Source: Bacteroidales bacterium
Lineage (GTDB): Bacteria > Bacteroidota > Bacteroidia > Bacteroidales > WCHB1-69
Direction of reading: 5' to 3'
Assembly: GCA_017549765.1 (NCBI GenBank)
Contig: JAFYNM010000027.1
Location: 1-38,455, forward strand
DNA length: 38,455 nt
A program made the translations under genes and the position numbers. Positions 1,971 through 19,913 of this stretch are shown piece by piece. The number at the start of each line of letters is the position of its first letter. The stretch's first letter is position 1. The notes beneath the pieces are model-generated. The model saw only the letters and a list, made by a program, of their open reading frames with translations, was not told the DNA's origin and did no database searches.

Positions 1971-3050
1971 ATGGAAAAACATGACAAAAACGATGACAAC
2001 GTTAAGATAACATGGTATGAGCATGTCCGCTCACACCCTGGCATGTACACTGGAATGTACATTGACAAGGAGAGCGAAGGTAGCTCTCCCCACGATAGCA
2101 TCTATATACTACTGAAAGAGGTAATTGACAACACTATCAATGAGTCTGAACAAGGTTATGGGAAAAGCATAGATGTCACCATCAATGATAACGAGGTGCG
2201 TGTGCGTGACTACGGAAGAGGCATCCCGTTTGATGAAATAGTAAATTGTGTAACAAAAATCAATCCAGGCAAAGGGATAGGCATTGCGCCGACAAATGCC
2301 CTCTCAAACTACTTCAAAGTGCAAAGTTTTCGCAACGGACAAACGAAAGAGGTTTTGTTCTATTGTGGCAAACTCATCAGTGAATTCCCCGTTGAATTGA
2401 GCGACCAGCAATCTGGTACTTTCATCTCCTTTGTACTCGACAGCAGCATATTCGGTAATTACAATTGGATACCACAACACCTCGTCAAGATGATGTGGAA
2501 CTACACTTACTTGAACGAAGGGATCGCCATCAACTACAATGGACAGAAGTTCCTTTCCAAGAACGGCTTGTACGACCTCTTGTGCCATAAGGTGAAACGA
2601 GAGGAGATGCTATATGAGCCGATTCACTTGCGGGACGACAAGTTCGAGCTCGTATTTACCCACACTATTCGGCGTTATGGGGAGGAACTATATTCGTTCG
2701 TCAACAAACACTACACTCCGCGAGGTGGCGCACACCAAAACTCCTTTCGTGAGGCGTTAGCCAAAACAATCCGCTCATATTTCGGCAAATGGTATGAAAC
2801 CGATGATATCTGTAACTCCGTTTCCGCTGTCATCACCATCAAAGTGCAAGAACCTATTTATGAAACAGGAGCGCACACACGCCTCGGTTCTGATTGGATG
2901 CAACCCGACGGTCCGACCATTCACGAATATGTTAACGATGTGGTAGGTCGCCAGTTATCAGACTACCTCCACAAGCATGCCGATGTCGGCGAGATCATCC
3001 GTAAGAAAATCAACGAATTAGAAGAAGAGCGCAAAGGCCTTCCTTTGTAA
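1971..3050 (+). CDS. ParE/GyrB N-terminal half-like GHKL protein without TOPRIM domain
   Basis: A 359-residue protein homologous to the ATPase and transducer domains of type II topoisomerase B subunits, closest in appearance to Bacteroidales ParE. Visible motifs are the N-box E50-V-I-D53-N54, the G1 box DYGRGIP (80-86), NALSNYF near 109-115, and transducer stretches YSFVNKHYTPRGGAHQNSF (241-259) and VSAVITIKVQEPIYETG (284-300). It ends where TOPRIM would begin, so it cannot hold the DNA-breakage core. The ATP lid between residues about 93 and 107 appears shortened by roughly 15-20 residues. The QTK-loop glutamine and lysine align with G300 and H302, so turnover is probably lost. ATG 1971 is chosen because the promoter lies at 1920-1927. 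It may be an inactive partner or decoy of ParE; that is inference. Confidence 0.85.
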   Translation: MEKHDKNDDNVKITWYEHVRSHPGMYTGMYIDKESEGSSPHDSIYILLKEVIDNTINESEQGYGKSIDVTINDNEVRVRDYGRGIPFDEIVNCVTKINPGKGIGIAPTNALSNYFKVQSFRNGQTKEVLFYCGKLISEFPVELSDQQSGTFISFVLDSSIFGNYNWIPQHLVKMMWNYTYLNEGIAINYNGQKFLSKNGLYDLLCHKVKREEMLYEPIHLRDDKFELVFTHTIRRYGEELYSFVNKHYTPRGGAHQNSFREALAKTIRSYFGKWYETDDICNSVSAVITIKVQEPIYETGAHTRLGSDWMQPDGPTIHEYVNDVVGRQLSDYLHKHADVGEIIRKKINELEEERKGLPL

Positions 3051-3099
3051 GTTTCATAAAACAAAAACAAATAACAGTTGCGCCCGACACGTAACAGGG

Positions 3100-3315
3100 A
3101 TGACGAATATGAACGATTACTATTTTTATGTAGCCCCAGACGAAGAAGGTTTGGGATGGGAATTCACGATTAGAGACTTGATTGAGAACGAATTCGAAGC
3201 AAAACCTGACAATTTCCCGGACAAGTCGGCAAAAATCGAGTTTTTGAAAGATTTGATTGCGGGTATTGAGGAGTGTGTGGAAAAGGTGGAGAGGGAGGAG
3301 GAAATTATCGTTTAG
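3100..3315 (+). CDS. Small acidic cassette protein, copy 1 (71 aa)
   Basis: A 71-residue acidic protein, MNDYYFYVAPDE near the start and a Glu-rich helical tail, about 80% identical to the one at 11164-11382. The family is not recognised. Here it lies 49 bases after the ParE-like gene with no promoter in between, so it is probably co-transcribed with it; the second copy has its own cassette promoter. The leader GTTGCGCCCGACACGTA is shared by both copies and lies upstream of ATG 3100, supporting this start. Size and acidity would suit an antitoxin, an immunity protein or a DNA-mimic, but nothing proves any of these. Confidence 0.65.
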   Translation: MTNMNDYYFYVAPDEEGLGWEFTIRDLIENEFEAKPDNFPDKSAKIEFLKDLIAGIEECVEKVEREEEIIV

Positions 3316-3323
3316 GGCGATGA

Positions 3324-3354
3324 TTGGAATGGGGGGATTATTTTTGTATTTTTG
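3324..3354 (+). promoter_or_regulatory. Promoter of the nuclease operon
   Basis: TTG (3324-3326), exactly 20 bases, then TATTTTTG (3347-3354) give a canonical Bacteroidota promoter, 37 bases before ATG 3392. The G-run in the spacer is partly shared with the promoter after the second small-protein copy (11411-11418). Confidence 0.7.
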
Positions 3355-3391
3355 CAAAGCGAATAGTCTTTAAGTATTTTATAATACACTT

Positions 3392-4375
3392 ATGGAGAAC
3401 AAGAACAAATTCGTGCATCTTCATGTGCACTCTTATTACTCATCGTTACATGGGTTATCAACAATCAAACAGCTTGTGGACAAAGCTATTGCGTGCAATA
3501 TGCAAGGTATGGCTTTGACTGACAAGAATATGTTCGGCATCAAAGAATTATACAATTACTGCTGTGAGGTAAACAAGAACAAAATAGACGACGAGAAGTT
3601 CAAACCGATTTTCGGCTGCGAGATTTATTGTGCCCACAGCGACCTTCATTCAAGGGGTAACTTTTTAAGAGAAGGCAAAGGATGGCACTTGATTCTGTTG
3701 GCAAAGAATGAAGTAGGTTACCATAATCTGCTTAAGATTGTTAATGAGGCATGGACAGATGGCTATTATTATTGTCCCCGTACAGAACATAGGTCAATTG
3801 AAAAGTATCACGAAGGACTGATTGCTACATCAGCTTGTCTTGCTGGAGAGATTCCGAGATACATTCAAAAAGGACAGTTGGAAGAGGCCGAGAAATCCGT
3901 CGAGTGGTTTAAGAACCTCTTTTGTGATGATTTCTACATAGAATTGATGCGTCACGAAGTAAAAGACAAAAAAACACAGGCAAACAGGGATATTTTCAGG
4001 GACCAGAAATCCATAGAACCGGCACTTATCAAATTGGCACAAAAGCACAACGTGAAAATTATATGCACAAACGATGTGTACTTCACCAATGAAGAGGATG
4101 CCGAAACACACGACGATATGTTGTGTTTTGCAATCGGAAAAGAGAAAAACGATCCATCGCGCTGGTATGTCAGCAAACAAGAATGGCTCAAAACCTCAGA
4201 AGAAATGGCAGAGTTGTTTTCTGACATTCCCGAAGCTCTTGACAACACGATAGAGATTCTAAACAAGGTGGAATGGTATAACATAGATCTATTTCAAGAG
4301 ATTCCGCCTGAGTTAGAAGGAAAACTGCCGTATAGATTTGAACAACAGAAGTACGGCTACAACTGTTACTGTTAG
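3392..4375 (+). CDS. Stand-alone DnaE-type PHP domain protein
   Basis: The 327 residues align with the N-terminal PHP domain of replicative polymerase DnaE (FVHLHVHS at 7-14, ALTDKNMFG at 41-49, IFGCEIY at 73-79, LILLAKNEVGYHNLLKIV at 100-117, SACLAGE near 147, CTNDVY at 225-230), but no palm, fingers or thumb follows. As I align it, metal ligands are altered: the Asp of YSLLDG is H20, the His of TDHGN is K45 and the His of NDVH is Y230. Phosphoesterase activity is therefore doubtful. It leads a four-gene operon with a PD-(D/E)XK protein starting 13 bases later. A short C-terminal tail (YGYNCYC) replaces the polymerase. An inactive polymerase mimic or a repurposed nucleic-acid-binding domain are the main options. 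Confidence 0.85.
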   Translation: MENKNKFVHLHVHSYYSSLHGLSTIKQLVDKAIACNMQGMALTDKNMFGIKELYNYCCEVNKNKIDDEKFKPIFGCEIYCAHSDLHSRGNFLREGKGWHLILLAKNEVGYHNLLKIVNEAWTDGYYYCPRTEHRSIEKYHEGLIATSACLAGEIPRYIQKGQLEEAEKSVEWFKNLFCDDFYIELMRHEVKDKKTQANRDIFRDQKSIEPALIKLAQKHNVKIICTNDVYFTNEEDAETHDDMLCFAIGKEKNDPSRWYVSKQEWLKTSEEMAELFSDIPEALDNTIEILNKVEWYNIDLFQEIPPELEGKLPYRFEQQKYGYNCYC

Positions 4376-4388
4376 AATGTAGGTAGAT

Positions 4389-5084
4389 ATGAGCGATATT
4401 ATTGATTTTTCAAAAGCAATAGAATCTTTTGTTGCAATTACAAAGGAAATTCACAAGAAAAAACAAGAGAAAATAAACAGAGGCGAATTTATCAATGTTT
4501 TTTGTCTTTGGAATGAGTTTTCAGGAATAACGGAGCCTATTCACAGTCGGATCCTGCACTTTTTTCTTTCAAATAATCCTATGCATGGTCAAGGAAATTT
4601 GTTTTTAGGACTATTTCTAAAGCGGATTGGCATTGATATCCAAGAGTGTGACGAATGGATTTCAACAGCAGAAATTGGACGAGTCGATGTTATGCTTAAG
4701 CGGATTCATCCTCGAAGTGTAGTAATAATAGAGAACAAGTCTAACTGGGCTGGGGATCAAGAGAATCAACTATATCGATATTGGTGTGAAAACATTCACC
4801 ATTGCGAAGAAGATTGTTCCGAAGAATATTACAAGTCTCATCCAGAGTATAAAATTGTCTATCTTGTTCCAAACATGGGTAAATCTATCAGCGAAAATTC
4901 TTTAGAGAAACCCAAAGAATTTGGAGATAATCTCCCTCTTTTTTTACCACTTAACCCAATCACCCTTTCTTTTGAAAAAGACATAGTAGCGTGGTTAACG
5001 GAGTGTATAAATAAACTTTCTCCCGACAACACTCCGCTAATCAATCTGATTTCACAATATAAATCCTATTGCAAAAACCTATAG
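4389..5084 (+). CDS. PD-(D/E)XK nuclease-like protein (PDDEXK_4 type)
   Basis: A 231-residue protein with the layout of the PDDEXK_4 family: TEPIHSRILHFFL (48-60) with E49, HGQGNLFLGLFL (66-77), then the core GRVDVML (D100) and IIENKSN (E115, K117), followed by DQENQLYRY (123-131) and IVYLVPN. All catalytic acids and the lysine are present, so metal-dependent DNA cleavage is plausible. Such proteins are common in phage-defence and island settings. It is 13 bases after the PHP gene and 3 bases before the next gene, clearly in one operon. Base composition is AT-rich, unlike the last gene of the operon. Confidence 0.85.
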   Translation: MSDIIDFSKAIESFVAITKEIHKKKQEKINRGEFINVFCLWNEFSGITEPIHSRILHFFLSNNPMHGQGNLFLGLFLKRIGIDIQECDEWISTAEIGRVDVMLKRIHPRSVVIIENKSNWAGDQENQLYRYWCENIHHCEEDCSEEYYKSHPEYKIVYLVPNMGKSISENSLEKPKEFGDNLPLFLPLNPITLSFEKDIVAWLTECINKLSPDNTPLINLISQYKSYCKNL

Positions 5085-5087
5085 AAA

Positions 5088-5663
5088 ATGGAAGAAGTAA
5101 AAGATGTTTTGGCTTTATTTGACACAGTCGATAAATGGCGTTCATATATTGAACTTGCAAATATGAAAACGGATTTGTTGAACGAGCTAAAAAATCGTTT
5201 AATAACCGAGTTGAAGAAAATCGCTGAAATGCATTTGGATTCAGCTTGGACGTTATATTGCGATTACAACTCCATTTGTATCAAACCGTCTGTAACACCA
5301 CTGATCGAAATTATCATTCAATGGCATTGGTGGAATACACCCTGGTGCAGGAGAGGTGTATGTCTTTGGGTAGATGCCAAAAACACAGATAGTATGAGTG
5401 TGTTTTCACGAATAAGAGAGAAAAAATCCCTTTTGCCTTTGCAAGAGTATGTGGAAAATATACAAAACCATAGTTGGTTTCCTTTCGTCAAAAAAATACC
5501 ATCAAAAGTTTTTGATGTACGCGACGAAATAGTCTCCATTGACGAATGTCTTTTTAAGGCTAAGGATAAAGCTGAACAACTGGCTTACGATCTTTGGCAC
5601 GAAGTATTCGAACCGTTTTCCTCAAAAGAAATAGCACATATATTTGAAGAAATCATAAAGTAA
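5088..5663 (+). CDS. Hypothetical protein between two nuclease-like genes
   Basis: A 191-residue soluble protein of unknown family. It begins 3 bases after the PD-(D/E)XK gene, and its TAA overlaps the ATG of the PLD-like gene (TAATG), so translation is probably coupled on both sides. It starts with a helical, charged segment (about 1-50), followed by an aromatic-rich middle (WHWWNTPWCRRGVCLWVDAK near 80-99) and a helical C-terminus. No catalytic motif is visible. Its fixed place next to the nuclease suggests a partner, sensor or inhibitor role. Confidence 0.7.
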   Translation: MEEVKDVLALFDTVDKWRSYIELANMKTDLLNELKNRLITELKKIAEMHLDSAWTLYCDYNSICIKPSVTPLIEIIIQWHWWNTPWCRRGVCLWVDAKNTDSMSVFSRIREKKSLLPLQEYVENIQNHSWFPFVKKIPSKVFDVRDEIVSIDECLFKAKDKAEQLAYDLWHEVFEPFSSKEIAHIFEEIIK

Positions 5664-6178
5664 TGCCCACCACCCTCATCACCGACTCCTCCCACTACAC
5701 CACCGTGCTGAACCTCGCGGCGCAGGCGAAAATTTCGCTGTGGATCGGAACCGCCGACATCAAAGACCTGTACGTGCTGCAGGGCGGTACTGAAAAGCCG
5801 TTTCTCGGGGTGCTGTCGGAGATGCTTGGCAAGGGCGTGGAGGTGCGGCTTATACACGCGAAGGAGCCGGGACCGAACTTCCGCGCCGACTTCGACCGCT
5901 ACCCGCGACTGGCCAAGATGCTGGAACGGGTGATGTGTCCGCGAGTACATTTTAAGATCATCGTCATCGACCAAACAGTCTGCTACGTGGGCAGCGCGAA
6001 CCTCACGGGCGCGGGTATGGGGATGAAATCGCCTTATCGCCGTAACTTCGAGGCAGGAATCCTTACCGATGAACCCTCTATTGTGTCCGCCGCCATTGAG
6101 GAGTTCGACAAGATGTGGCGCGGAAGCGAGTGCGGGAGGTGCCAGCGGAGGAATGTCTGCCCGGATCCGATTGTGTGA
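5663..6178 (+). CDS. Phospholipase D-superfamily nuclease-like protein, single HKD
   Basis: A 171-residue protein with one HKD motif: H96-x-K98-x4-D103 (HFKIIVID) followed by G110-S111 and N113 (GSANLTGAG). Single-HKD proteins of this size (Nuc/BfiL type) work as dimers and cut DNA or RNA. The C-terminus has three cysteines (C157, C160, C166: CGRCQRRNVC) that could bind metal. It is the last gene of the nuclease operon, coupled to the preceding gene by a TAATG overlap. It is markedly richer in G+C than the three genes before it, resembling the gene at 7609 instead, so the operon looks assembled from two sources. A perfect hairpin follows. Confidence 0.85.
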   Translation: MPTTLITDSSHYTTVLNLAAQAKISLWIGTADIKDLYVLQGGTEKPFLGVLSEMLGKGVEVRLIHAKEPGPNFRADFDRYPRLAKMLERVMCPRVHFKIIVIDQTVCYVGSANLTGAGMGMKSPYRRNFEAGILTDEPSIVSAAIEEFDKMWRGSECGRCQRRNVCPDPIV

Positions 6179-6191
6179 ATTTACGGAAATC

Positions 6192-6222
6192 CACTTCAGA
6201 TTTTACGATAAAATCTGAAGTG
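6192..6222. terminator. Perfect 14-bp hairpin between convergent genes
   Basis: CACTTCAGATTTTA (6192-6205), loop CGA, then its exact complement TAAAATCTGAAGTG (6209-6222). It lies between the end of the PLD-like gene (plus) and the end of the DUF4143 ATPase (minus), so it could serve as a two-way terminator. No U-run follows. Confidence 0.65.
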
Positions 6223-6265
6223 CTACTTCAAAATTTCATTCAAAAACAATGGTTGTGTATAGGTA

Positions 6266-7438
6266 TTAGAGTGTCGTTGCCGTTGAATAGATTTCACCAT
6301 CCCACAACTTTTTCAGAAAAATCTTGACCGGCCATATCTCTACATCGTTGAGCATGCGTGGTACAGGGTCAAGAGAAACTGCTATCAAGCGGCATTGGGG
6401 ATGCTCCTCTTTGAATGCTTTCAGTCCGCGGAGATGTCGTGATTGAACCTCACTATTGGATTTGATTTCGATAGCCACTTCGGCATCCCCCAAAACTGCA
6501 TCAACCTCATAATCAGAATAAGTGTGCCAATACGAGAGCACTTCAAGCATACGATGATAGCCCAAGTAAGCCACAATCTCTTGAATGACAAAATGTTCGA
6601 AAGCGTGGCCGAAATCCGCCGAACCAGGAGTCAGAGCTCGACGTCCTAGCAGATAGTTGGGAATAGCGACATCAAAAAAGTAAAAGCGCGGGGCTTGCCG
6701 CAATTTACGTTTCACCACCTTGGAAAATGCAGGAATCATATATCCGATCAGGGTCTCTTCCAAAATGGAAAAATAGCCCGCAACCGTTTTCGAGTCAACA
6801 CCGCAATCCTGCGCTATATTGCTGTAATTGACCATCTCGCCATCGGTTAAGGCGGCAGCCTCGAGAAAGCGAGTGAATGTGGACATATTGCGCACAAGTG
6901 CCTCTGCCTTGATTTCCTCACGTAAATATACGGCAACGTATGCCTGCAACATTTGCCAATATCTGTCGGTGTCAGCAAGATAATGTCTTGGCATCATGCC
7001 TTGGTTAACCGCCTTGATCAAATCAAAATCGGGTATTTCCGCACTGACAAGAGGGTAAAGATTCGTCTGCATTGCTCTGCCGCCGAGCATGTTGGCACCG
7101 CCGCGCTTGAGTTTTCGGGCACTCGACCCGCTGAGAATGAAACGAAGTCCTTTGCGTACCATAAGCCACTGCACCTCATTCAGCAAAACGGGCAGCGACT
7201 GCACCTCATCAATGATGACCAACGTGCCAGGGTCGCACATTTCCAAATCCTGCCTGAGGAGAGATGGATTGCGTTGCAGTCGTTCGTAGGTGTTGCTTTC
7301 CAACAAGTCATAAAAACGTGCGTCGGGAAAGAGCTCCAGCAGCAATGTTGTTTTTCCCGTCTGGCGAGCCCCGAACAGAAAAGTGCTGTCCGCAGAAAGA
7401 ATCGTTTTGTCTAATATCCGTTTAATCATCGCATTCAT
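6266..7438 (-). CDS. AAA ATPase with DUF4143 C-terminal domain
   Basis: A 390-residue protein of the AAA_14/DUF4143 family, widespread in Bacteroidota. Walker A is GARQTGKT (23-30), Walker B is TLVIIDEVQ with D77-E78, and FILSGSSARKL is the sensor-1 region. A middle winged-helix-like segment (SNIAQDCGVDSKTVAGYFSILEE) precedes the C-terminal DUF4143 part, which contains a nuclease-fold-like stretch (DYEVDAVLG, then VAIEIKSN). ATG 7438 is chosen because the -7 box at 7456-7449 lies upstream of it and inside the longer frame that starts at 7594. It is a single-gene unit opposite to its neighbours, and its promoter carries a strong inverted repeat. The cellular role of the family is unknown. Confidence 0.88.
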   Translation of the reverse strand: MNAMIKRILDKTILSADSTFLFGARQTGKTTLLLELFPDARFYDLLESNTYERLQRNPSLLRQDLEMCDPGTLVIIDEVQSLPVLLNEVQWLMVRKGLRFILSGSSARKLKRGGANMLGGRAMQTNLYPLVSAEIPDFDLIKAVNQGMMPRHYLADTDRYWQMLQAYVAVYLREEIKAEALVRNMSTFTRFLEAAALTDGEMVNYSNIAQDCGVDSKTVAGYFSILEETLIGYMIPAFSKVVKRKLRQAPRFYFFDVAIPNYLLGRRALTPGSADFGHAFEHFVIQEIVAYLGYHRMLEVLSYWHTYSDYEVDAVLGDAEVAIEIKSNSEVQSRHLRGLKAFKEEHPQCRLIAVSLDPVPRMLNDVEIWPVKIFLKKLWDGEIYSTATTL

Positions 7439-7448
7439 AATTTGGCGG

Positions 7449-7502
7449 CAAAGATAATAAAATTTTCGGAATACCACTCCGAAAATTACAGAAATTTTCG
7501 GA
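7449..7502 (-). promoter_or_regulatory. Promoter and candidate operator of the DUF4143 ATPase
   Basis: TATCTTTG (7456-7449, minus strand) is the -7 box, 10 bases from ATG 7438. Immediately upstream AATTTTCGGA (7461-7470) and TCCGAAAATT (7478-7487) form a perfect 10-bp inverted repeat with a 7-base spacer, and the same 10-mer recurs at 7493-7502. This covers the -33 to -7 spacer, so a repressor bound here would block transcription. Confidence 0.65.
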
Positions 7503-7544
7503 ACACAATTCCTAAGTATGACAACATCTTCGCGCTCACATTTG

Positions 7545-7581
7545 TGCCACGTTTTCGCACACTTGTGCCCTATTTTTGCCG
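7545..7581 (+). promoter_or_regulatory. Cassette promoter/operator element, copy B
   Basis: This copy matches the one at 8256 at 30 of 37 bases. The dyad is GCACA-CT-TGTGC (7557-7568) and the -7 box TATTTTTG is at 7571-7578, 30 bases before ATG 7609. It sits back to back with the ATPase operator. Confidence 0.8.
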
Positions 7582-7608
7582 CCGTAAAACCCAATAAACC
7601 CCAAAACT

Positions 7609-8250
7609 ATGATCCATTACAACGATTATGTGATTGAACTTATCGAGCAGGATATTCTCCGGGCCTACAACGACGGGAAAGTCGATTACACCGAACGCCA
7701 AGACCTGTTGAAGTTGCGCAAGGAACTCCTCAACCGGCAAGCAGCGGAGCCGGTAAACCAAGCGGAGCTGCTCCCCGACATCATCGCCTTCAACGAAGCA
7801 CTGCGGGAGGCGCTGAAGGAGATGTACGAAACCGCCCGCCGCATCTATCGCGACACGCTTTCCTGCGACTACGGCGAACATCTGGTAGTCACTGCCAGAT
7901 GCTACCTCGGCAGCAACTATCCCACGCTGCACCCTTTGCAGAACGACTCGCGTGACGAAGTGTGGTGCGCGCTCCGCGACAGCGGCTACAATCCGCTCTA
8001 CGAGGACGGCGTGTCCCTCTCCACGCTGACTCTCCCCAGCGACTTCCGCGAATCGTTCGACGACTTCATCGGACTGACCTGTCCGCCGCCCAACTGGAAT
8101 GAAGGGCTCGACCCGGAGCTCACCAAAGACCTGCACCTCATCAGCGCGTTCCACCACCTTTTCGACCACACCAACTTCGCCCTCACCGATTTCATCTTCG
8201 TACGCGACTTCCGTACGGAGATCACGATGGAGGTGGTGACGGGGGAATGA
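7609..8250 (+). CDS. Unrecognised cassette protein, copy 2 (213 aa)
   Basis: A full-length version of the protein truncated at the window start. It is 213 residues, acidic and soluble. An N-terminal helical region (about 1-85, charged, IELIEQDILRAYNDGK then a long amphipathic helix) precedes a conserved region from about residue 90 that is almost identical in copy 1. No motif of a known enzyme was found. It is directly preceded by cassette element B, and the next element (copy C) begins 6 bases after its stop, so the transcription unit is probably this single gene. G+C content and codon use match the exonuclease and PLD genes, not the AT-rich FtsK-like and ParE-like genes. Confidence 0.75.
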   Translation: MIHYNDYVIELIEQDILRAYNDGKVDYTERQDLLKLRKELLNRQAAEPVNQAELLPDIIAFNEALREALKEMYETARRIYRDTLSCDYGEHLVVTARCYLGSNYPTLHPLQNDSRDEVWCALRDSGYNPLYEDGVSLSTLTLPSDFRESFDDFIGLTCPPPNWNEGLDPELTKDLHLISAFHHLFDHTNFALTDFIFVRDFRTEITMEVVTGE

Positions 8251-8255
8251 TGCAA

Positions 8256-8292
8256 TGTCACATTTTGGCACACCCGTGTGCTATTTTTGCCG
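8256..8292 (+). promoter_or_regulatory. Cassette promoter/operator element, copy C (reference copy)
   Basis: The most symmetric copy. TGTCACATTTTG is followed by GCACAC-CC-GTGTGC (8268-8281), a perfect 6-bp dyad, abutting the -7 box TATTTTTG (8282-8289). It starts 6 bases after the stop of the previous gene, so it marks the cassette boundary. The gene starts 26 bases after the box. Confidence 0.85.
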
Positions 8293-8315
8293 CAACAATA
8301 AAAACAACTCTGACA

Positions 8316-8966
8316 ATGAACGGAACGAAACACATCATCATCCCTGTAGGCTTCAACGCCGCGCAGAGCAAAGAGGGCATTATGCAACAAATGCCTTCGT
8401 CATACGCCTACGAATGGATGGAGAGCGCGGATTTTGTCAAAAAGTATCTCTATGGAGTGGAAGATGGTCCCTACGACCCGCCCGTGGAGGTGTGGCTGTT
8501 GGTGTGGGATTCGCCCTCAAATATGGTGCGCAAACCGCATCCCGATCCGAAATGCGAAGGATTATCGAATATGGAGTTGGTAATCGGAGCGATAGGAGTT
8601 AATTTGGTGTGGTGCAAGGCGCATCACGCCAATATCAGAAGACAGCTTATCTATATAATGCCGCCAAGACACAACTCCAAACTGTACGAGCTGCCCGACA
8701 AACATTTCCTGGGCGTGGATGATATACACATCGTTGATATGCAGGAGGAGATTGCCCAAGCGGACGGCAACACGCCTTTGTTGGACTTCCTTGGAAGTAT
8801 AGACCGCCGAGTGGCGGAGATAATCGCAGGACCAAAGCCCGCTTCTGTGGCGCACATTGGCGAGTGGGCCTTCTGCGGTTGCAAGAAGATACGAAGGGTA
8901 CAACTACCAGGCACGGCAACCCTTGGAGAGCACGTGTTCGCCGCGTGCGAAGGGTTGGAGGGATGA
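8316..8966 (+). CDS. Cassette protein with a C-terminal BspA-like leucine-rich fragment
   Basis: A 216-residue protein. The first ~170 residues are not recognised (MNGTKHIIIPVGFNAAQSK start, several Trp and Pro, no signal peptide). The last ~40 residues read as BspA-type LRR_5 repeats (VAHIGEWAFCGCKKIRRVQL, then LGEHVFAACEGLEG), cut off mid-repeat by the stop. ATG 8316 is chosen because the promoter element lies at 8256-8292; an upstream ATG at 8247 would put the promoter inside the gene and overlap the previous stop. The lack of a signal peptide is unlike surface BspA proteins, so the LRR segment may have been captured from one. The next cassette element begins 4 bases after the stop. Confidence 0.65.
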   Translation: MNGTKHIIIPVGFNAAQSKEGIMQQMPSSYAYEWMESADFVKKYLYGVEDGPYDPPVEVWLLVWDSPSNMVRKPHPDPKCEGLSNMELVIGAIGVNLVWCKAHHANIRRQLIYIMPPRHNSKLYELPDKHFLGVDDIHIVDMQEEIAQADGNTPLLDFLGSIDRRVAEIIAGPKPASVAHIGEWAFCGCKKIRRVQLPGTATLGEHVFAACEGLEG

Positions 8967-8970
8967 GTTG

Positions 8971-9007
8971 TGCCACATTTCAGCACACCCGTGCGCTATT
9001 TTTGCCA
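8971..9007 (+). promoter_or_regulatory. Cassette promoter/operator element, copy D
   Basis: Matches the copy at 8256 at 32 of 37 bases. The dyad is GCACAC-CC-GTGCGC with one mismatch; -7 box TATTTTTG is at 8997-9004, 37 bases before ATG 9042. It starts 4 bases after the stop of the preceding gene. Confidence 0.85.
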
Positions 9008-9041
9008 GCAGAAATCCATTCGTCATTTTAAAATCAATAAT

Positions 9042-10241
9042 ATGCAAGAAATCGATCAACCAAAATCAACAAATCATCCTTTTCCACCCATAGATTTGTT
9101 GGAAAAAATTGACAATGTACAACCCTGTGTTTCTTCTGAAGAAATTGAAAGAAACAAAAAGTCAATAACCAAGGTTCTGAAGTATTTTGAGATACCATTC
9201 AAAGAAATAACGGTTCAATGCGGACTGGCATACAGTTCGTATAATATCACATTGGCACCGCCGGCCCGAATGACTAAATTATTAAAGTTGGAGAGATACA
9301 TTTCACTGCTTCTTCGACATTTAGGCAGGAATCGTATCACAATTCCACTGCCCGGGAAAATCGCTTTTGGCATTGATATCGTAAATAAGAACCCGCAAAC
9401 GCTCTCATTACGTTCTCTGATTGAAACAGAAGCGTTTCAAAACAGCGAAGCTGAACTCCCCATAGCTTTGGGTGTGACCATAGATGGCCAGCCCATCATT
9501 ACAGACTTGAGCAAGATGCCACAGCTTCTTATTGGCGGTGCATGTATGCAAGGGAAAACGACACTGCTCCACAACATAATCCTCTCGTTACTTTACAAGA
9601 AATGTCCGTCCGAACTCAAATTCGTTATAATGGATCCATCAAGATATGCTTTCTCGATATATAAAAAGCTAACAAACAGCTATTTGTCAGAGTTGCCAAA
9701 TTTGGAATCTGATATTATCACAGACACAAAAAAAATGGGGAATGCGTTAAATCATATAAGCGAGGAAATGGATCACCGTTACGAGTTGTTGAGAAATACC
9801 CATAGTAGAAACATCCAAGAATATAACACTAACGTATCAGACGATAAACAACTCCCTTACCTCGTGGTGGTAATTAATCTCTTTGATGAATTGACGAGGG
9901 CAGAGAACGGTGATGCAGCAAGTACAATTCATCTTTTGGCACAAATTGGGCGAGCAGTGGGCATACACTTGATTATATCCACCCAAGTACACGATTACAG
10001 TGTTATCACTGGTTGGCTCAAAGCCAACTTTCCATCGCGAATCGCATTCAGAGTCAGCACCAGCATCGAATCACGAACAATTTTGGACGAGAGCGGAGCA
10101 GAAGAACTCGCCGGGAAAGGCGACATGCTGTTCTCGCATAACGGTGAGCTTTTGCGATTGCAGGGTGCGTTGGTGCAGCCGGAAGAGATTGAGCGTGTGG
10201 TGACGTATATTGAGAATCATTCTGAACATTTTGATTCATAG
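9042..10241 (+). CDS. FtsK motor-domain paralog, truncated and with altered Walker B
   Basis: The 399 residues align along their length with the cytosolic alpha and beta motor domains of Bacteroidota FtsK: PPIDLLEKI (15-23), PGKIAFGIDIVNKNPQTLSL (104-123), ELPIALG (138-144), Walker A GACMQGKT (166-173), GRAVGIHLIISTQ (303-315), SRTILDESGAEELAGKGDML (344-363). The four-helix membrane domain and the DNA-reading gamma winged helix are both missing. Where FtsK has the Walker B Asp-Glu (VVDEFADL) this protein has N279-L280 (VINLFDEL), and the RPS after ATQ is VHD. ATP may bind but hydrolysis should fail. It could poison or cap FtsK hexamers, or be a decoy; both are inference. ATG 9042 is used because the promoter lies at 8997-9004. 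Confidence 0.88.
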   Translation: MQEIDQPKSTNHPFPPIDLLEKIDNVQPCVSSEEIERNKKSITKVLKYFEIPFKEITVQCGLAYSSYNITLAPPARMTKLLKLERYISLLLRHLGRNRITIPLPGKIAFGIDIVNKNPQTLSLRSLIETEAFQNSEAELPIALGVTIDGQPIITDLSKMPQLLIGGACMQGKTTLLHNIILSLLYKKCPSELKFVIMDPSRYAFSIYKKLTNSYLSELPNLESDIITDTKKMGNALNHISEEMDHRYELLRNTHSRNIQEYNTNVSDDKQLPYLVVVINLFDELTRAENGDAASTIHLLAQIGRAVGIHLIISTQVHDYSVITGWLKANFPSRIAFRVSTSIESRTILDESGAEELAGKGDMLFSHNGELLRLQGALVQPEEIERVVTYIENHSEHFDS

Positions 10242-10267: not shown

Positions 10268-10305
10268 TGCTACATTTTGGCATACCCCTATCTTATTTTT
10301 TATCG
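10268..10305 (+). promoter_or_regulatory. Cassette promoter/operator element, copy E (degenerate)
   Basis: The left part TACATTTTGGCA is kept, but the right dyad arm GTGTGC has become CTATCT and the -7 box ends TTTT rather than TTTG (10294-10301). It lies 22 bases before ATG 10324. Promoter and operator strength are probably reduced. Confidence 0.65.
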
Positions 10306-11082: not shown

Positions 11083-11118
11083 TGCCACGATTTTGCACAC
11101 CCGTGTGTTATTATGCCG
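11083..11118 (+). promoter_or_regulatory. Cassette promoter/operator element, copy F
   Basis: TGCCACGATTTTG, dyad CACAC-CC-GTGTG and a -7 box shortened by one base (TATTATG, about 11109-11115), followed by CCG. It lies 48 bases before ATG 11164. The intervening leader is shared with the other copy of the small gene. Confidence 0.75.
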
Positions 11119-11163
11119 ACATATTACAAACTCTTTAACAGTTGCGCCCGACACGTATCAGGG

Positions 11164-11382
11164 ATGATGAATATGAACGATTACTATTTTTATGTAGCCC
11201 CAGACGAAGATGGTTTGGGATGGGAATTCACGATTAGCGACTTAATCGAGAGCGAATTCGAAGAACGACCTGACAATTTCCCAGACAAGTCGGCCAAAAT
11301 CGTGTTTTTGAAAGAATTGATTGCTGATATTGAGGAGTGTGTTGAAACTGTGGAGAATGAGGAGGAGAAAATTGTTCTTTGA
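11164..11382 (+). CDS. Small acidic cassette protein, copy 2 (72 aa)
   Basis: A paralog of the 71-residue protein at 3100-3315, with about a dozen substitutions and one extra C-terminal residue. The start MMNMNDYYFYVAPDE is chosen by alignment with copy 1; an in-frame ATG at 11113 falls inside the promoter element and is rejected. Here the gene has its own cassette element, whereas copy 1 trails the ParE-like gene. Downstream is a promoter for the ADP-ribosylglycohydrolase in the same place where copy 1 has the nuclease-operon promoter. Confidence 0.65.
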   Translation: MMNMNDYYFYVAPDEDGLGWEFTISDLIESEFEERPDNFPDKSAKIVFLKELIADIEECVETVENEEEKIVL

Positions 11383-11442: not shown

Positions 11443-12255
11443 ATGTTAGGCGCAATTATCGGTGACACCGCAGGTTCGGTGTATGAATTCAACAACATCA
11501 AAACCACGGATTTTCCTTTTTTTTGTTTTCGCAGCAGCTATACGGATGACAGTGTGATGTCGTTCGCCGTTGCCGATTGGCTGTTATCCGACAGCGAACA
11601 CACGCAATCCGTGCTGGAAGAGACGATGGTGCGCATCGCCCATGACTTTCCCTGTCCGATGGGCGGCTATGGGGGCAGCTTTTACAGATGGCTGTTCAGC
11701 GGTCGGGAGCGCAAACCCTACAACTCTTGGGGCAACGGCTCGGCCATGCGCGTGAGTGCGGTAGGCTGGGCTTTTGACACGCTGGACGAAACCCTCCGTG
11801 TGGCGGAGCTGTCGGCATCCATCACCCACAACCACCCCGAGGGCATCAAGGGGGCGCAGGCCACCGCCGCCGCCATCTTCCTCGCCCGCAACGGCAAAAC
11901 GAAGGACGAAATCAAGGCCTATGTCGAAGAAATGTTCGGTTATGACCTTCACCGCACCTGCGACGGGATTCGGCCGTACTATGAATTTGACGAGAGTTGT
12001 CAGGGCACCGTGCCGGAAGCCATCATCGCCTTCCTCGACAGCAACGACTTTGAAAATGCCGTCCGGCTGGCGGTATCACTTGGAGGCGACAGCGACACGT
12101 TGGCCTGCATCACCGGCGGCATCGCCGAAGCCTTCTACAAGGAGATTCCGGAAGAAATTGTCCTGCAGATGTGGCAGCGACTGCCCGAATCTTTCCAACT
12201 GATTCTGCAAGAGATGCAATCGAAATTCGGATACCCGCTGCCTATCAAGATATAA
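11443..12255 (+). CDS. ADP-ribosylglycohydrolase family protein
   Basis: A 270-residue enzyme of the ARH/DraG fold, which removes ADP-ribose from proteins or nucleic acids using two metal ions. Ligand motifs are intact: LGAIIGDTAGS (2-12), YTDDSVM with T34-D35-D36, WGNGSAMR (96-103), and GGDSDT with D216, D218 and T219. No signal peptide. Within the island it could reverse an ADP-ribosylating toxin, as in polyimmunity loci, or act in housekeeping; neighbours suggest the former. The exonuclease copy 2 follows after 64 bases and has only half a promoter element, so the two may be co-transcribed. This region is G+C-rich. Confidence 0.9.
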   Translation: MLGAIIGDTAGSVYEFNNIKTTDFPFFCFRSSYTDDSVMSFAVADWLLSDSEHTQSVLEETMVRIAHDFPCPMGGYGGSFYRWLFSGRERKPYNSWGNGSAMRVSAVGWAFDTLDETLRVAELSASITHNHPEGIKGAQATAAAIFLARNGKTKDEIKAYVEEMFGYDLHRTCDGIRPYYEFDESCQGTVPEAIIAFLDSNDFENAVRLAVSLGGDSDTLACITGGIAEAFYKEIPEEIVLQMWQRLPESFQLILQEMQSKFGYPLPIKI

Positions 12256-12283: not shown

Positions 12284-12304
12284 TGTCACGGCATTGTACA
12301 CCCC
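12284..12304 (+). promoter_or_regulatory. Left half of a cassette promoter element
   Basis: TGTCACGGCATTGTACACCCC matches the first ~20 bases of the element at 8256, but the right dyad arm and the -7 box are missing: the sequence continues directly as GAAGAAAGAAC, which is leader in the first exonuclease copy. A deletion removing the promoter is the simplest reading. Confidence 0.5.
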
Positions 12305-12319
12305 GAAGAAAGAACAATC

Positions 12320-12814
12320 ATGCAAGATTTTGCCGCCATAGATTTCGAGACCGCCAACGGACATCCCAGCAGCGTGTGCAGCGTGGGCGTGGTGGTCGTG
12401 CGCGGCGGCCTCATCACCGACACGTTCTACAGCCTCATCAAGCCCGAGCCCGACTACTATGCCTGGTTCTGCCAGCGCGTACATGGGCTATCGCATGAGG
12501 ACACGGATGACGCGCCGGTTTTCCCTGACGTGTGGCAACAAATAGAGCCCATGATAGAGGGATTGCCGTTGGTGGCGCACAACAGTCCCTTTGACGAGGG
12601 CTGCCTGCGAGCGGTATTCCAGGTTTACCAGATGGACTATCCCGACTACGAGTTTCATTGCACCTGTCGCGCCTCGCGGCGTCATTTCGGGCGGCGCTTG
12701 CCCAACCACCAGCTCCACACCGTGGCGGCGGCCTGCGGCTGTCCCATGACGAACCACCACCATGCCCTCGCGGATGCCGAGGCGTGCGCCCGGATTGCGA
12801 TGGAGATACTGTAA
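12320..12814 (+). CDS. DnaQ-like 3'-5' exonuclease (DEDDh family), copy 2
   Basis: A paralog of 465-959 with the same 164-residue length and all catalytic residues kept (D8, E10, D102, H147, D152). Differences are scattered (for example NGHPSS for NGQRSS near residue 14, RAVF for KAVF near 106). The preceding ~65 bases also resemble those of copy 1 (GGTGGC..TTTATGAAA), showing the whole cassette was copied. The start at 12320 corresponds to ATG 465. It lacks a recognisable own promoter and may depend on that of the ADP-ribosylglycohydrolase. Confidence 0.9.
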   Translation: MQDFAAIDFETANGHPSSVCSVGVVVVRGGLITDTFYSLIKPEPDYYAWFCQRVHGLSHEDTDDAPVFPDVWQQIEPMIEGLPLVAHNSPFDEGCLRAVFQVYQMDYPDYEFHCTCRASRRHFGRRLPNHQLHTVAAACGCPMTNHHHALADAEACARIAMEIL

Positions 12815-14196: not shown

Positions 14197-14520
14197 ATGC
14201 GAAAAGCCTTCATCCTATCCATACTGCTCATATCCGTCGCCGCGACGAGCCACGCACAGACGGTCTATCAGAAAGACCGATGGGGTGCGAAACTCCTTTT
14301 CTTCCAGGAAGATGCAGTCCGTATCTGCGACCGCTGGGGCGAACAGATACTGTGGTACGATGCTGACTACAACACCATCCGTCAGAAGGATCGCTGGGGC
14401 ACGCCATTGTTTTTTATTGACGGCAACACCATCCGCCAGAAAGACCGGTGGGGCGCCGCCCTCTATTACTTCGACTTCACCCCATCGCTCTGGCAGATCG
14501 CCTGTGTCGTGTTGTTGTGA
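14197..14520 (+). CDS. Secreted DRWG-repeat protein
   Basis: 107 residues with an N-terminal signal peptide (MRKAFILSILLISVAATSHA, cut near residue 20). The mature part has four copies of a short repeat: DRWG followed by two or three residues, an L/F/Y-rich strand, a D-x-x-[NA] turn and IRQK leading into the next DRWG. The spacing is about 20 residues, suggesting four beta-hairpins of a small beta-sheet or propeller-like fold. The last ~15 residues are hydrophobic (LWQIACVVLL). I do not recognise the family. It is a single gene with its own promoter, followed closely by the M1 peptidase promoter, which partly overlaps its 3' end. Confidence 0.75.
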   Translation: MRKAFILSILLISVAATSHAQTVYQKDRWGAKLLFFQEDAVRICDRWGEQILWYDADYNTIRQKDRWGTPLFFIDGNTIRQKDRWGAALYYFDFTPSLWQIACVVLL

Positions 14521-17665: not shown

Positions 17666-17793
17666 GGAGGAGTTAAGGAGTTAAGAAGTGAAGAGGGGAG
17701 CACTCATTCCCCTTCTTGAGAAGGGGTGCCCGAAGGGCGGGGTAGTGGAGAGGAGTTAATTGAAAATTGAAAATTAAAAATTGAAAATGGTTG
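17664..17793. repeat. REP-like intergenic unit, copy 1
   Basis: GGAGTTAAG-type words are followed by the hairpin CCCCTTCT-TG-AGAAGGGG (17709-17726), a second small hairpin GCCC-GAA-GGGC, GGGGTAGTGGAGAGGAG and a (TTGAAAA)-type AT tail. The same unit, almost base for base, occurs at 18748-18882. Each copy abuts the 3' end of a RhuM-like gene, and may double as its transcription terminator. Confidence 0.75.
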
Positions 17794-18657
17794 TCAGACG
17801 TTCAGCAGCAATTCCGCTCCTACCTCCATCCTGCAGAACGCGAATAGCTTCTTGCCGAGATCTTTGAGGGAGGCGCCGAGGTGATAGACGGTGTCGTCTA
17901 GGATGAGGAAGCGGTCGTGGAACCGGTCGGAGGTGCGGACCTGTATGGGCGGGTATTGCCGGTTGTGGCGCTCAATGTCCACCGCCAGGGTGTCGGAGAT
18001 GCGCCTGGTGACGATGGTCGCGGTGACGCCCTCGGTCCGCTTGGTGAGCATCTTGAGCACGGAGTCGTCCACAAAGTTGTCGATGAGGATGATGCGTTTC
18101 TTTGCCTTGCGGATGAGGTCCGCGGCGAAGGTGTACGCATCGAAGATCTGCCCGTCAAAAAAGATCCCCTGTCGGGGAGGAAGCGCTGTTTTCACCAGAT
18201 GATCCACCTTTTGATGTACAGATAGTATGTCTAGTTCGTTTTGTCGCAAACGCTCTTCCACCAACTCAAATCGTTGATTTACCGCAGCACCACGAAGAAT
18301 GTATTCCTTGAGAATATGATTTGCCCAAATACGAAACTGTGTGGCCTGTGCAGAATTGACTCTATATCCAACAGACAGAACAGCATCAAGGTTATAGAAT
18401 CTTGTGGCATATTTTTTACCATCATGTGCAGTTGTTTCCAAAATGGAAACAACTGATTGTTGTTGTAATTCTCCTGATTCAAAAATGTTTTTCAAGTGTT
18501 TTGATATAGCTGCTTTCTGAACACCAAAAAGCAAGCCTATTTGCGCCTGCGTTAGCCACACGGTCTCATCCTCCATCCTGACCTCCAGTCTGATGTCGTC
18601 ATCCGGTTGGTAGAGAATGATTTCGCCTTTGTTCATAGGATCAATATTTGTCTCCAT
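17794..18657 (-). CDS. RhuM-like DNA-binding protein with PLD-like C-terminus, copy 1
   Basis: 287 residues. The N-terminal ~130 match the RhuM virulence-protein family: EIILYQPDDDIRLEVRMEDETVWLTQAQIGLLFGVQKAAISKHLKNI, a helix-turn-helix, then RFYNLDAVLSVGYRVNS. A short coiled segment follows (about 135-165), then a PLD-like domain (AKKRIILIDNFVDDSVLKML, later HDRFLILDD with an H-x-R-x4-D variant of HKD, then GASLKDLGKK). ATG 18657 follows a -7 box at 18686-18679; the longer frame from 18720 contains that promoter. RhuM-type genes are mobile-island and toxin-associated, but no antitoxin partner is visible. Its C-terminal half is almost identical to the downstream paralog. Confidence 0.85.
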   Translation of the reverse strand: METNIDPMNKGEIILYQPDDDIRLEVRMEDETVWLTQAQIGLLFGVQKAAISKHLKNIFESGELQQQSVVSILETTAHDGKKYATRFYNLDAVLSVGYRVNSAQATQFRIWANHILKEYILRGAAVNQRFELVEERLRQNELDILSVHQKVDHLVKTALPPRQGIFFDGQIFDAYTFAADLIRKAKKRIILIDNFVDDSVLKMLTKRTEGVTATIVTRRISDTLAVDIERHNRQYPPIQVRTSDRFHDRFLILDDTVYHLGASLKDLGKKLFAFCRMEVGAELLLNV

Positions 18658-18678
18658 TTTGTATCTTTTAAATCGCCG

Positions 18679-18686
18679 CAAAGATA
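18679..18686 (-). promoter_or_regulatory. -7 box of RhuM-like copy 1
   Basis: TATCTTTG on the minus strand, 21 bases before ATG 18657, followed by CGGCG. No TTG at 20-base spacing. Confidence 0.6.
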
Positions 18687-18747
18687 CAAATAATTTTGCA
18701 AATCGTTGATAATCAGGCAATTTTAACTATTGATTGCAAAAAATCGG

Positions 18748-18882
18748 TGAGGAGTTAAGAAACTAAGGAGTGAAGAAGTTAAGAGGGGGGCGCTATTCCC
18801 CTTCTTGAGAAGGGGTGCCCGTAGGGCGGGGTAGTGGAGAGGAGTTAATTGAAAATTGAAAATTAAAAATTAAAAATGGTTG
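18748..18882. repeat. REP-like intergenic unit, copy 2
   Basis: Duplicate of 17664-17793, with hairpin CCCCTTCT-TG-AGAAGGGG at 18798-18815. The near-identity runs without a break into the 3' part of the adjacent RhuM-like gene, showing the unit was copied together with it. Confidence 0.75.
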
Positions 18883-19761
18883 TCAGACGTTCAGCAGCAA
18901 TTTCGCTCCTACCTCCATCCTGCAGAACGCGAACAGCTTCTTGCCGAGGTCTTTAAGGGAGGCGCCGAGGTGATAGACGGTGTCGTCGAGGATGAGGAAG
19001 CGGTCGTGGAAGCGGTCGGAGGTTTGGATCACCACGGGCGTGTATTGCTGGTTGTGGCGCTCAATGTCCACCGCCAGCGTGTCGGAGATGCGCCTGGTGA
19101 CGATGGTCGCGGTGACGCCCTCGGCCCGCTTGGTAAGCATCTTGAGCACGGAGTCGTCCACATAGTTGTCGATGAGGATGATGCGTTTCTTTGCCTTGCG
19201 GATGAGATCCGCGGCGAAGGTGTACGCATCGAAGATCTGCCCGTCACAGTAGATCCCCTGCATGGGCGGCAGCGCAGTGCGCACGAAGAAGTCCACTTGA
19301 TTTTCCAAGTTCTGAATCCTCTCAGAATGCTTATATAATTCTTTGTCGATGCGCTGCCCCAAGCAAAGTATCTGCTGATTAATGCTATATCCGTGCAAAA
19401 GATGATTTTTTAGAGTGTGTGTGGCCCAACGTCTGAACAAAGTAGCATTTTTGCTATTGACACGATACCCGACAGAAAGTATGGCATCGAGATTGTAATA
19501 CTTTGTGGTATAGGTTCTTGTCCCACCTTGTCCCATGTGTTCCAAAATGGAACATGTGCTCTCGATTTCTATCTCACCGCTTTTATAGATGTTGTTTAAA
19601 TGTTTGGTTATAGCTGCTCTTTGGGTGCCAAAGAGTTCTGCCATCTGTTGCTGTGTCAGCCATACTGTCTCACCTTCCATCCGCACCTCCAAGTGTATGT
19701 CTTCGTTCGGCTGATACAGAATAATTTCGCTTTTATTCGAAGGATCAAAATTTGTTTCCAT
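18883..19761 (-). CDS. RhuM-like DNA-binding protein with PLD-like C-terminus, copy 2
   Basis: 292 residues, same layout as copy 1: RhuM HTH (ETVWLTQQQMAELFGTQRAAITKHLNNIYKSGE), KYYNLDAILSVGYRVNS, a helical linker (about 135-170) and the PLD-like domain with HDRFLILDD. The last ~125 residues differ from copy 1 at only a few positions, whereas the N-terminal half is only about half identical, so the DNA-recognition part has diverged or been swapped while the C-terminal part is kept uniform. ATG 19761 follows the -7 box at 19790-19783. The two genes are not overlapping and each has its own promoter. Confidence 0.85.
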   Translation of the reverse strand: METNFDPSNKSEIILYQPNEDIHLEVRMEGETVWLTQQQMAELFGTQRAAITKHLNNIYKSGEIEIESTCSILEHMGQGGTRTYTTKYYNLDAILSVGYRVNSKNATLFRRWATHTLKNHLLHGYSINQQILCLGQRIDKELYKHSERIQNLENQVDFFVRTALPPMQGIYCDGQIFDAYTFAADLIRKAKKRIILIDNYVDDSVLKMLTKRAEGVTATIVTRRISDTLAVDIERHNQQYTPVVIQTSDRFHDRFLILDDTVYHLGASLKDLGKKLFAFCRMEVGAKLLLNV

Positions 19762-19782
19762 TCTATCATTGTTAAATCGCTG

Positions 19783-19790
19783 CAAAGATA
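19783..19790 (-). promoter_or_regulatory. -7 box of RhuM-like copy 2
   Basis: TATCTTTG on the minus strand, 21 bases before ATG 19761, the same spacing as for copy 1. Confidence 0.6.
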
Positions 19791-19913
19791 CAATATTTAT
19801 TATAAATTATTGATAATCAGATGATTTTAACTATTGATTGTAAATATTGGAAATGGAGGGTTGTGAAACTAAGGAGTTAAGAAGTTAAGTGGGGCGCGTT
19901 CAACAAAAAATCC

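Follow-up and report, generated by a model that had tools for sequence, protein, structure and literature searches.

The left end of contig C26 of the 2.45 Mb Bacteroidales genome G000 (the whole contig, 38,455 bases, is the window analysed here) holds an island carrying three shortened and altered copies of core chromosome proteins: a ParE-like ATPase fragment, a DnaE PHP domain and an FtsK-like motor. Each copy is a cassette of its own within one of the variable chromosomal islands, of defence type, that this Bacteroidales genus carries. Islands of this type appear to capture altered relatives of core machines of the chromosome and cell cycle (ParE apparently twice, together with DnaB, RadA, MreB, FtsK and DnaE types) and to place most of them behind a shared element, with a WYL protein as candidate regulator. 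Taken as a whole, and with rather less than even confidence, we read the captured genes as co-regulated, non-catalytic binding proteins of a variable island, for which a decoy job would be likeliest. The comparison set comprised 40 genomes of the genus, G000 counted in, several of the 39 others being incomplete.

A sequence-only reading of this DNA had described three open frames of about 1 kb, cut at domain borders and changed at key residues (the QTK lysine and lid, three PHP ligands, and the Walker B Asp-Glu). Both points were borne out, the frames by Pfam domains and 43-52% identity to the genome's own proteins, and the residue changes by alignment with natives. The catalytic and structural roles of the altered ParE, PHP and FtsK residues are those that we take them to have from their families.

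The ParE-like gene (1971-3050, +; 359 residues) matches Pfam DNA_gyraseB (E 5.6e-19) and HATPase_c (E 2e-6), and its frame stops ahead of Toprim: the GHKL and transducer domains are present, and Toprim, an intact lid and an intact QTK are absent. It is 51-52% identical to the full-length ParE of the same genome, and in alignment with natives the lid NTGRNFKGDFASIGMNG is cut down to NPGKGIG and SQTK reads TGAH. An island in genome G021 holds an orthologous copy, 66% identical. Both share the deletion in the lid and the replacement of Q-T by G-A, the QTK lysine is absent in both and replaced by different residues, and the G021 copy has additionally lost the native-invariant E45 and R78. Compared with each other, the two copies give a ratio of non-synonymous to synonymous substitution (dN/dS) of 0.20 by Nei-Gojobori counts (dS 1.04; GHKL part 0.24, transducer 0.14), and the native pair gives 0.03; the transducer part is the best kept between the copies, at 79% identity. 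This comparison, available among the three for ParE only, gave a value not near 1. Being common to both copies, the lid deletion and the G-A pair predate the measured selection, which therefore acted on a ParE already altered in its ATPase site. The ParE copy has thus been maintained since it lost its lid, and decay is refuted for it.

The islands hold a third ParE copy, in G017, which has 496 residues with lid and QTK intact and much of Toprim absent, and lies behind the shared element. In the ParE tree the G000 and G021 pair joins the genus ParEs (98/93), and the G017 copy is nested within the genus natives (99/97), which makes a second, separate capture likely but not firm. The DnaE and FtsK trees place their copies on very long branches. 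Among the look-alikes, host origin is supported for ParE alone. The GyrB row L003 was excluded from the ParE invariant counts and from the second ParE tree. A genome-collection scan with the two ParE copies found 30 stretches that fit a pattern and returned 2 loci, namely the G021 locus and a 26% match in Cocleimonas. The ParE frames that end early in G050, G015 and G049 were not taken as copies, each being the sole match of its genome at the limit used; that of G050 (L184, G050:C120) ends after ~385 residues, is otherwise native-looking and possibly reflects an assembly frameshift.

That the three copies are pieces of phage genes rather than host genes seems to us barely credible. Phages carry relatives of DnaE, FtsK and GyrB, and the PHROG matches include phrog_7513 (PHP-type, function unknown). 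However, the best phage-collection matches, all in unannotated faecal contigs, reach 51% for DnaE, 43% for FtsK and 42% for ParE, whereas natives of the genus match the copies at 55%, 46% and 53%, respectively. Viral-contig scans with the FtsK and DnaE copies yielded no relative (no such scan was made with ParE). With phage matches no closer than genus natives, and ParE copies clustering with genus ParEs, a phage origin is not favoured. Third-position guanine-cytosine content (GC) is 0.54 in the ParE copy, 0.47 in the DnaE copy and 0.44 in the FtsK copy, against 0.77-0.80 in the genome's own core genes, which fits transfer, relaxed codon choice, or both.

The DnaE copy (3392-4375, +; 327 residues) matches Pfam PHP only, the polymerase domains being absent, and is 48% identical to the genome's own DnaE over residues 69-299. 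Three of nine ligand positions are changed, D17 to H, H42 to K and H261 to Y in the numbering of the native; two of the nine columns scored are the L and V of HLHVH rather than its histidines, all of which are kept in the copy, leaving the count the same. As a side observation, this lone PHP domain shares its island with DnaQ-like exonucleases (465-959 and 12320-12814). The E. coli PHP domain is a binding site for the proofreading exonuclease, and by analogy the two are a possible candidate pair.

The FtsK copy (9042-10241, +; 399 residues) matches Pfam FtsK_alpha and FtsK_SpoIIIE only. It begins at the alpha domain and retains the alpha and beta motor domains; the membrane part and Walker B D-E are absent, and no match to the gamma domain was found. 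Against the genome's own FtsK (43% identity), IDEF has become INLF, ATQRP has become STQVH and DPKKVEF has become DPSRYAF, whilst the Walker A GK and the arginine of SR(I/M)AFRV are kept. PADLOC models SspH and mad8 match this copy, as they may match any FtsK-type motor.

Searches of the 39 other genus genomes, several of which are incomplete, turned up no orthologue of either the DnaE or the FtsK copy, and the ParE copy recurs in the absence of both. The sequence-only idea of a single three-gene system was accordingly rejected. Altered DnaE- and FtsK-type relatives are not unique to the window. Second DnaE-type proteins are encoded in G046 (L182:5960-8164, 734 residues) and G004 (L183:5010-7226, 738 residues), each adjoining a similar membrane-type gene. 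Both have PHP and partial polymerase matches and more PHP ligand changes than the window copy; the two share 50% identity, at saturated dS. In G009, a 146-residue FtsK-type frame (L240:3809-4249), 29% identical and without the Walker A lysine, adjoins a sigma-factor-like gene. These look-alikes of G004, G046 and G009 lie outside marked islands and are not orthologues of the window copies; the element scores at best 14-16 of 24 in the stretches examined around them, and never above 16 at the two DnaE-type genes. In G040 and G020 the short FtsK matches come from pieces at contig ends that look native, a 267-residue DnaE match in G016 begins at a contig end, and L024 was excluded from the FtsK set.

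Only one argument for maintenance applies to the DnaE and FtsK copies, because they have no orthologue for dN/dS. Neutral simulations run to the observed divergence left none of the three frames stop-free in any of 300 runs (mean 7-9 stops). The open frames of the three copies are not a product of chance; for DnaE and FtsK this covers past rather than present selection. By these comparisons decay is refuted for ParE, and not for DnaE and FtsK. We regard it as highly improbable that the copies are relics, captured gene pieces on their way out and open by chance: the missing orthologues of the DnaE and FtsK copies would fit this view, as would remnants in the island such as a piece of an 89-residue gene at 3072-3312, but neither the dN/dS of 0.20 for ParE and 0.18-0.31 for pairs of DnaB-like genes nor the neutral runs do. 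On dN/dS, gene decay can be dismissed for the ParE and DnaB-like genes, and the neutral runs count against it for all three copies.

Further core look-alikes were found in related islands. A DnaB_C-type domain (Pfam E 1e-41, two stretches) joined to an unknown C domain is present near full length in 9 of 40 genomes, mostly at 39-46% identity to genus natives over ~116 residues. Among 11 aligned rows, the FSLE glutamate is gone in 8, the EKNRHG segment is rewritten in all 10 rows that cover it, and Walker A is kept in 10. All 21 pairs formed by 7 sequences give dN/dS of 0.18-0.31, which shows that the DnaB-like gene is under purifying selection despite its altered active site. RadA-like genes occur in G006 (NCBIfam sms, E 1.9e-9) and G010, and G006 also has one of MreB type (MreB_Mbl, E 3e-79).

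Two of the 11 DnaB-like rows have the domain joined to other partners, and the partners recorded for DnaB-type domains comprise the unknown C domain, the LRR1 N domain and a UPF0227-type domain. The last of these is fused to a DnaB_C-type domain without Walker A in an island-like stretch of G019 (L175:5236-6816). Such varied fusions, and the position of the DnaE copy in a tight row with PDDEXK_4, P0004 and PLD genes, could point to cassettes that have diverged and taken on another biochemical task, such as binding DNA or nucleotides in a defence module, unrelated to the parent protein. We consider this unlikely; the transducer is the best-kept part of the ParE copies, as expected if a parent-like surface matters.

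The element shared by these genes reads TGCCAC-N3-TT-N-GCACA...TATNTTTGC, a palindrome joined to a promoter box that we take to be a Bacteroidales-type -7 box. It was found at 54 sites in 22 of 40 genus genomes, its reversed pattern at none, and an earlier fuzzy scan of 43 loci with flanks (650 kb) gave 33 sites, with none in one random-sequence control. In the window it precedes the ParE-like gene (1894-1928, +; 21/24 defined bases), the P0007 gene (7545-7579, +; 22/24), the LRR1 gene (8256-8290, +; 23/24), the FtsK-like gene (8971-9005, +; 23/24) and, as a weaker copy, LRR2 (10268-10302, +; 19/24), and it stands at an 89-residue gene (11083-11117, +; 21/24). Twelve of the 16 core-like genes tested carry it. 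On the same scale of 24, the three ParE copies score 21, 21 and 20, the FtsK copy 23, six DnaB-like genes 20-22, the RadA-like genes 22 and 17, the MreB-like gene 22 and two AAA genes 20, whilst 70 control open reading frames score 11-15. No clear element was seen at two further DnaB-type genes (17 and 14), one of two RtcB genes (12) or HipB (12). Since window and island sites supplied the pattern, there is some circularity in the scores at FtsK, LRR1, the G000 and G017 ParE copies and the DnaB-like genes; none of the MreB-like, RadA-like or WYL genes contributed to it, nor did the G021 ParE copy. The WYL genes scored, at 19-20, are four in number and belong to four other genomes picked from the fetched loci; they are not all WYL genes. 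In several islands a WYL gene (Pfam E 8.6e-11 for one member) lies near an M3-peptidase-type flank, and is therefore the obvious candidate regulator of the element; we infer that the island's WYL protein controls it.

How might such genes act? The captured fragments most likely act by binding rather than catalysis, because the ParE copy and the DnaB-like gene are under purifying selection despite their altered active sites. Once the element is switched on, a fragment would compete with the native protein for an inhibitor delivered by a phage or a rival bacterium, and so serve as a decoy. The protease toxin Cpe1 is described as acting on the ATPase domain of ParE alone, and Cpi1, which confers immunity to it, as working through competitive substrate binding (PMC12136450); this behaviour makes protection by a copy of the target plausible in principle. 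The analysis shows truncation, loss of motifs, selection on the ParE and DnaB-like genes and a common element; enzyme inactivity, binding and decoy action of the copies are what we infer, and decoy or dominant-negative action would be a sensible kind of mechanism. We rank the decoy first, a dominant-negative brake second and a new binding job third. In a wider formulation, which we hold more loosely still and regard as doubtful, an inducible, regulator-linked set of binding-only versions of core machines (a pseudo-core of parts of topoisomerase IV, replicative helicase, polymerase, translocase, RadA and MreB) would shield or brake the chromosome cycle under attack by phage, toxins or DNA damage.

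The second-ranked alternative, that induced fragments enter the native assemblies of ParE, FtsK or DnaB and halt replication or segregation as an abortive response or damage checkpoint, strikes us as rather unlikely, though it has points in its favour. Retention of Walker A with loss of Walker B is the usual make-up of a poisoning subunit, and the FtsK copy, which has lost Walker B, still has its Walker A lysine and the SRIAFRV arginine. The DnaB-like genes have Walker A in 10 of 11 rows but a rewritten EKNRHG segment. An ATP-driven ParE dimer requires the ATP lid, however, which the two old ParE copies lack, and the loss of 86 of 205 other invariant positions in the FtsK copy makes its entry into a native hexamer doubtful. 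A regulatory precedent for such a brake is the WYL factor DriD, described as binding single-stranded DNA and switching on the cell cycle inhibitor didA (PMC12340889).

Several observations weigh against a co-regulated set of binding decoys. The sequence-only reading had held that loss was confined to catalysis, a claim that our counts do not support. With native invariants defined from 30 ParE, 12 DnaE and 11 FtsK sequences, the copies have lost 8 of 19 active-site positions in ParE, 3 of 9 in DnaE and 8 of 13 in FtsK, against 17 of 71, 24 of 92 and 86 of 205 other invariant positions. Loss is not concentrated at catalytic positions (Fisher p 0.15, 0.70 and 0.25, respectively; pooled 0.17), and the copies are broadly relaxed, catalytic losses being some among many. 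With no orthologue of the FtsK and DnaE copies among the genus genomes, dN/dS rests on the ParE and DnaB-like genes. Three of the 11 DnaB-like rows keep the FSLE glutamate, and the conserved motifs of the MreB-like gene look intact. Common control of all three copies is not supported either, since it fails for DnaE, whose copy is without the element (13/24, inside the control range). Four of the 16 core-like genes score 13-17, and seven of 13 G000 island genes tested score 11-14. No WYL gene is among the window frames read, and the island runs off the contig. As to the Cpe1 parallel, the toxin cuts at LHAGGKF, and the G000 native ParE has NTGRNF at this place; being without GG, this ParE may not be a Cpe1 substrate, so that the parallel is one of principle and the decoy reading is weakened. 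A decoy without a lid would, moreover, have to bind via other surfaces. Finally, the second ParE capture is not firm: the approximately unbiased test rejects a single joint origin of the three ParE copies just marginally (p 0.045) and does not reject a genus-native clade excluding the G017 copy (p 0.18), and the bootstrap of the ParE tree had not settled.

The remainder of the window island fits a defence-type setting. Directly after the DnaE copy, and in one tight row with it, lie a PDDEXK_4 nuclease-type gene (4389-5084, +; Pfam E 1.1e-14, PADLOC PDC-S26), the open reading frame P0004 (5088-5663, +; 191 residues), which has no match in Pfam, PADLOC, NCBIfam or PHROGs at the limits used, and a PLD-type gene (5663-6178, +), recurrent in the array by Pfam and locus clustering and matched by PADLOC DrmC models. 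An AAA_14/DUF4143 ATPase gene on the opposite strand follows (6266-7438, -; Pfam, PADLOC PDC-S01); PADLOC PDC models thus match both it and the PDDEXK_4 gene. Next come P0007 (7609-8250, +), known by sequence comparison, and LRR1 (8316-8966, +), an array protein whose N domain is recurrent and which matches LRR_5 weakly (Pfam, locus clustering). Beyond the FtsK copy lie LRR2 (array protein P0010; 10324-11046, +), with a weak Pfam LRR_5 match and a relative of its family adjoining the ParE copy in G021, and the 89-residue array gene (11113-11382, +), whose remnant at 3072-3312 was recognised by sequence comparison. An array gene at 11443-12255 (+) is presumably ADP-ribosylglycohydrolase-like, and the recurrent gene at 12320-12814 (+), with its second copy at 465-959, presumably a DnaQ-like exonuclease, both named by their sequence motifs. 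No RNA families or tRNAs were found in the window.

The island continues past the contig start, where a partial P0007 gene (3-374) marks the position-1 edge; since the window cuts its left end, part of the island lies elsewhere in G000. P0007 and the exonuclease gene each occur twice, 3-959 being 93% and 84% identical to 7877-8176 and 12303-12602, respectively, a sign of cassette duplication or shuffling. A short, secreted-looking KDRWG-repeat protein (14197-14520) stands at one end of several islands, its cluster recurring in 15 of 37 loci. Just beyond the island lies a tandem pair of RhuM-type genes (17706-19844, -) with long 94% and 72% repeats.

Across the genus, the exonuclease is matched in 31 of 40 genomes, and 34 stretches were fetched around exonuclease sites and ParE hits, their frames being clustered together with those of three other stretches. 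In G011, an island of PLD, DUF4143-type, ORF6N-type, exonuclease, LRR and P0007 genes lies between M1-peptidase and nitroreductase-type flanks that resemble window genes at 14.6-17.7 kb; none of the three copies is among its frames, on a contig that ends within 15 kb. Related islands also hold HipA/HipB-like, Fic/RhuM, DUF262-like, KAP ATPase, PDDEXK_4, RtcB, ADP-ribosylglycohydrolase-like and WYL genes, as well as GIY-YIG domains. The names Fic, KAP, WYL and GIY-YIG rest on Pfam, HipA/HipB-like was assigned by eye, and several others come from sequence motifs.

Defence-type islands are known; a cargo of maintained, active-site-altered relatives of core machines would be the new part, and in the open-licence literature we found no report of a defence-type island carrying altered host replication, segregation or cell-shape relatives kept after active-site change. 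If the decoy or brake reading is true, such islands would indicate which core proteins are attacked in gut and rumen communities and would supply ready-made binding partners. The shared element allows a direct test, with one candidate regulator, one site and many genes.

The nearest known kind is the rAID (recombinase-associated acquired interbacterial defence) array, which likewise consists, in Bacteroidales, of individual genes that vary from array to array and have a conserved motif between them. As described, rAIDs are defined by a tyrosine recombinase and co-oriented orphan immunity genes of 100-300 codons (PMC12247911). Several genes here exceed 300 codons, the copies having 327-399, some lie on the other strand, including one long minus-strand gene, GC is 0.35-0.61 rather than under 41% as in rAIDs, and the cargo includes core-machine look-alikes. 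A conserved intergenic motif is present (54 sites in 22 of 40 genomes, none in the control), though it is not necessarily the rAID motif. A motif scan of 1006 frames from 57 loci found no tyrosine-recombinase-like and two serine-recombinase-like frames, a weak test with several islands cut by contig ends. Membership of the rAID class was rejected on gene size, orientation and GC; the islands differ from it in gene size, orientation, cargo and, as far as the motif scan tells, recombinase.

Islands of the WYL/BrxR/CapW kind resemble the present ones in having a WYL regulator gene beside a variable, defence-type gene set, and BrxR, a WYL-family repressor of a defence island, is described as binding inverted repeats (PMC9122601). 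Here, by contrast, one element stands before many separate genes, degenerate core relatives are part of the cargo and WYL binding is putative. Two known toxin types, Cpe1 and Fic AMPylation toxins, are described as attacking the ATP-lid loop of GyrB/ParE (PMC12136450), the region deleted in both old ParE copies; the native ParE here is without the GG of the Cpe1 motif, and the known immunity proteins are not copies of the target. The DnaE copy, lastly, matches by sequence the solved epsilon-alpha fusion chain 4gx8. The PHP domain of E. coli DnaE performs no metal chemistry and serves as a binding scaffold, a likeness to which the island copy adds one difference: here the PHP domain stands alone, free of its polymerase.

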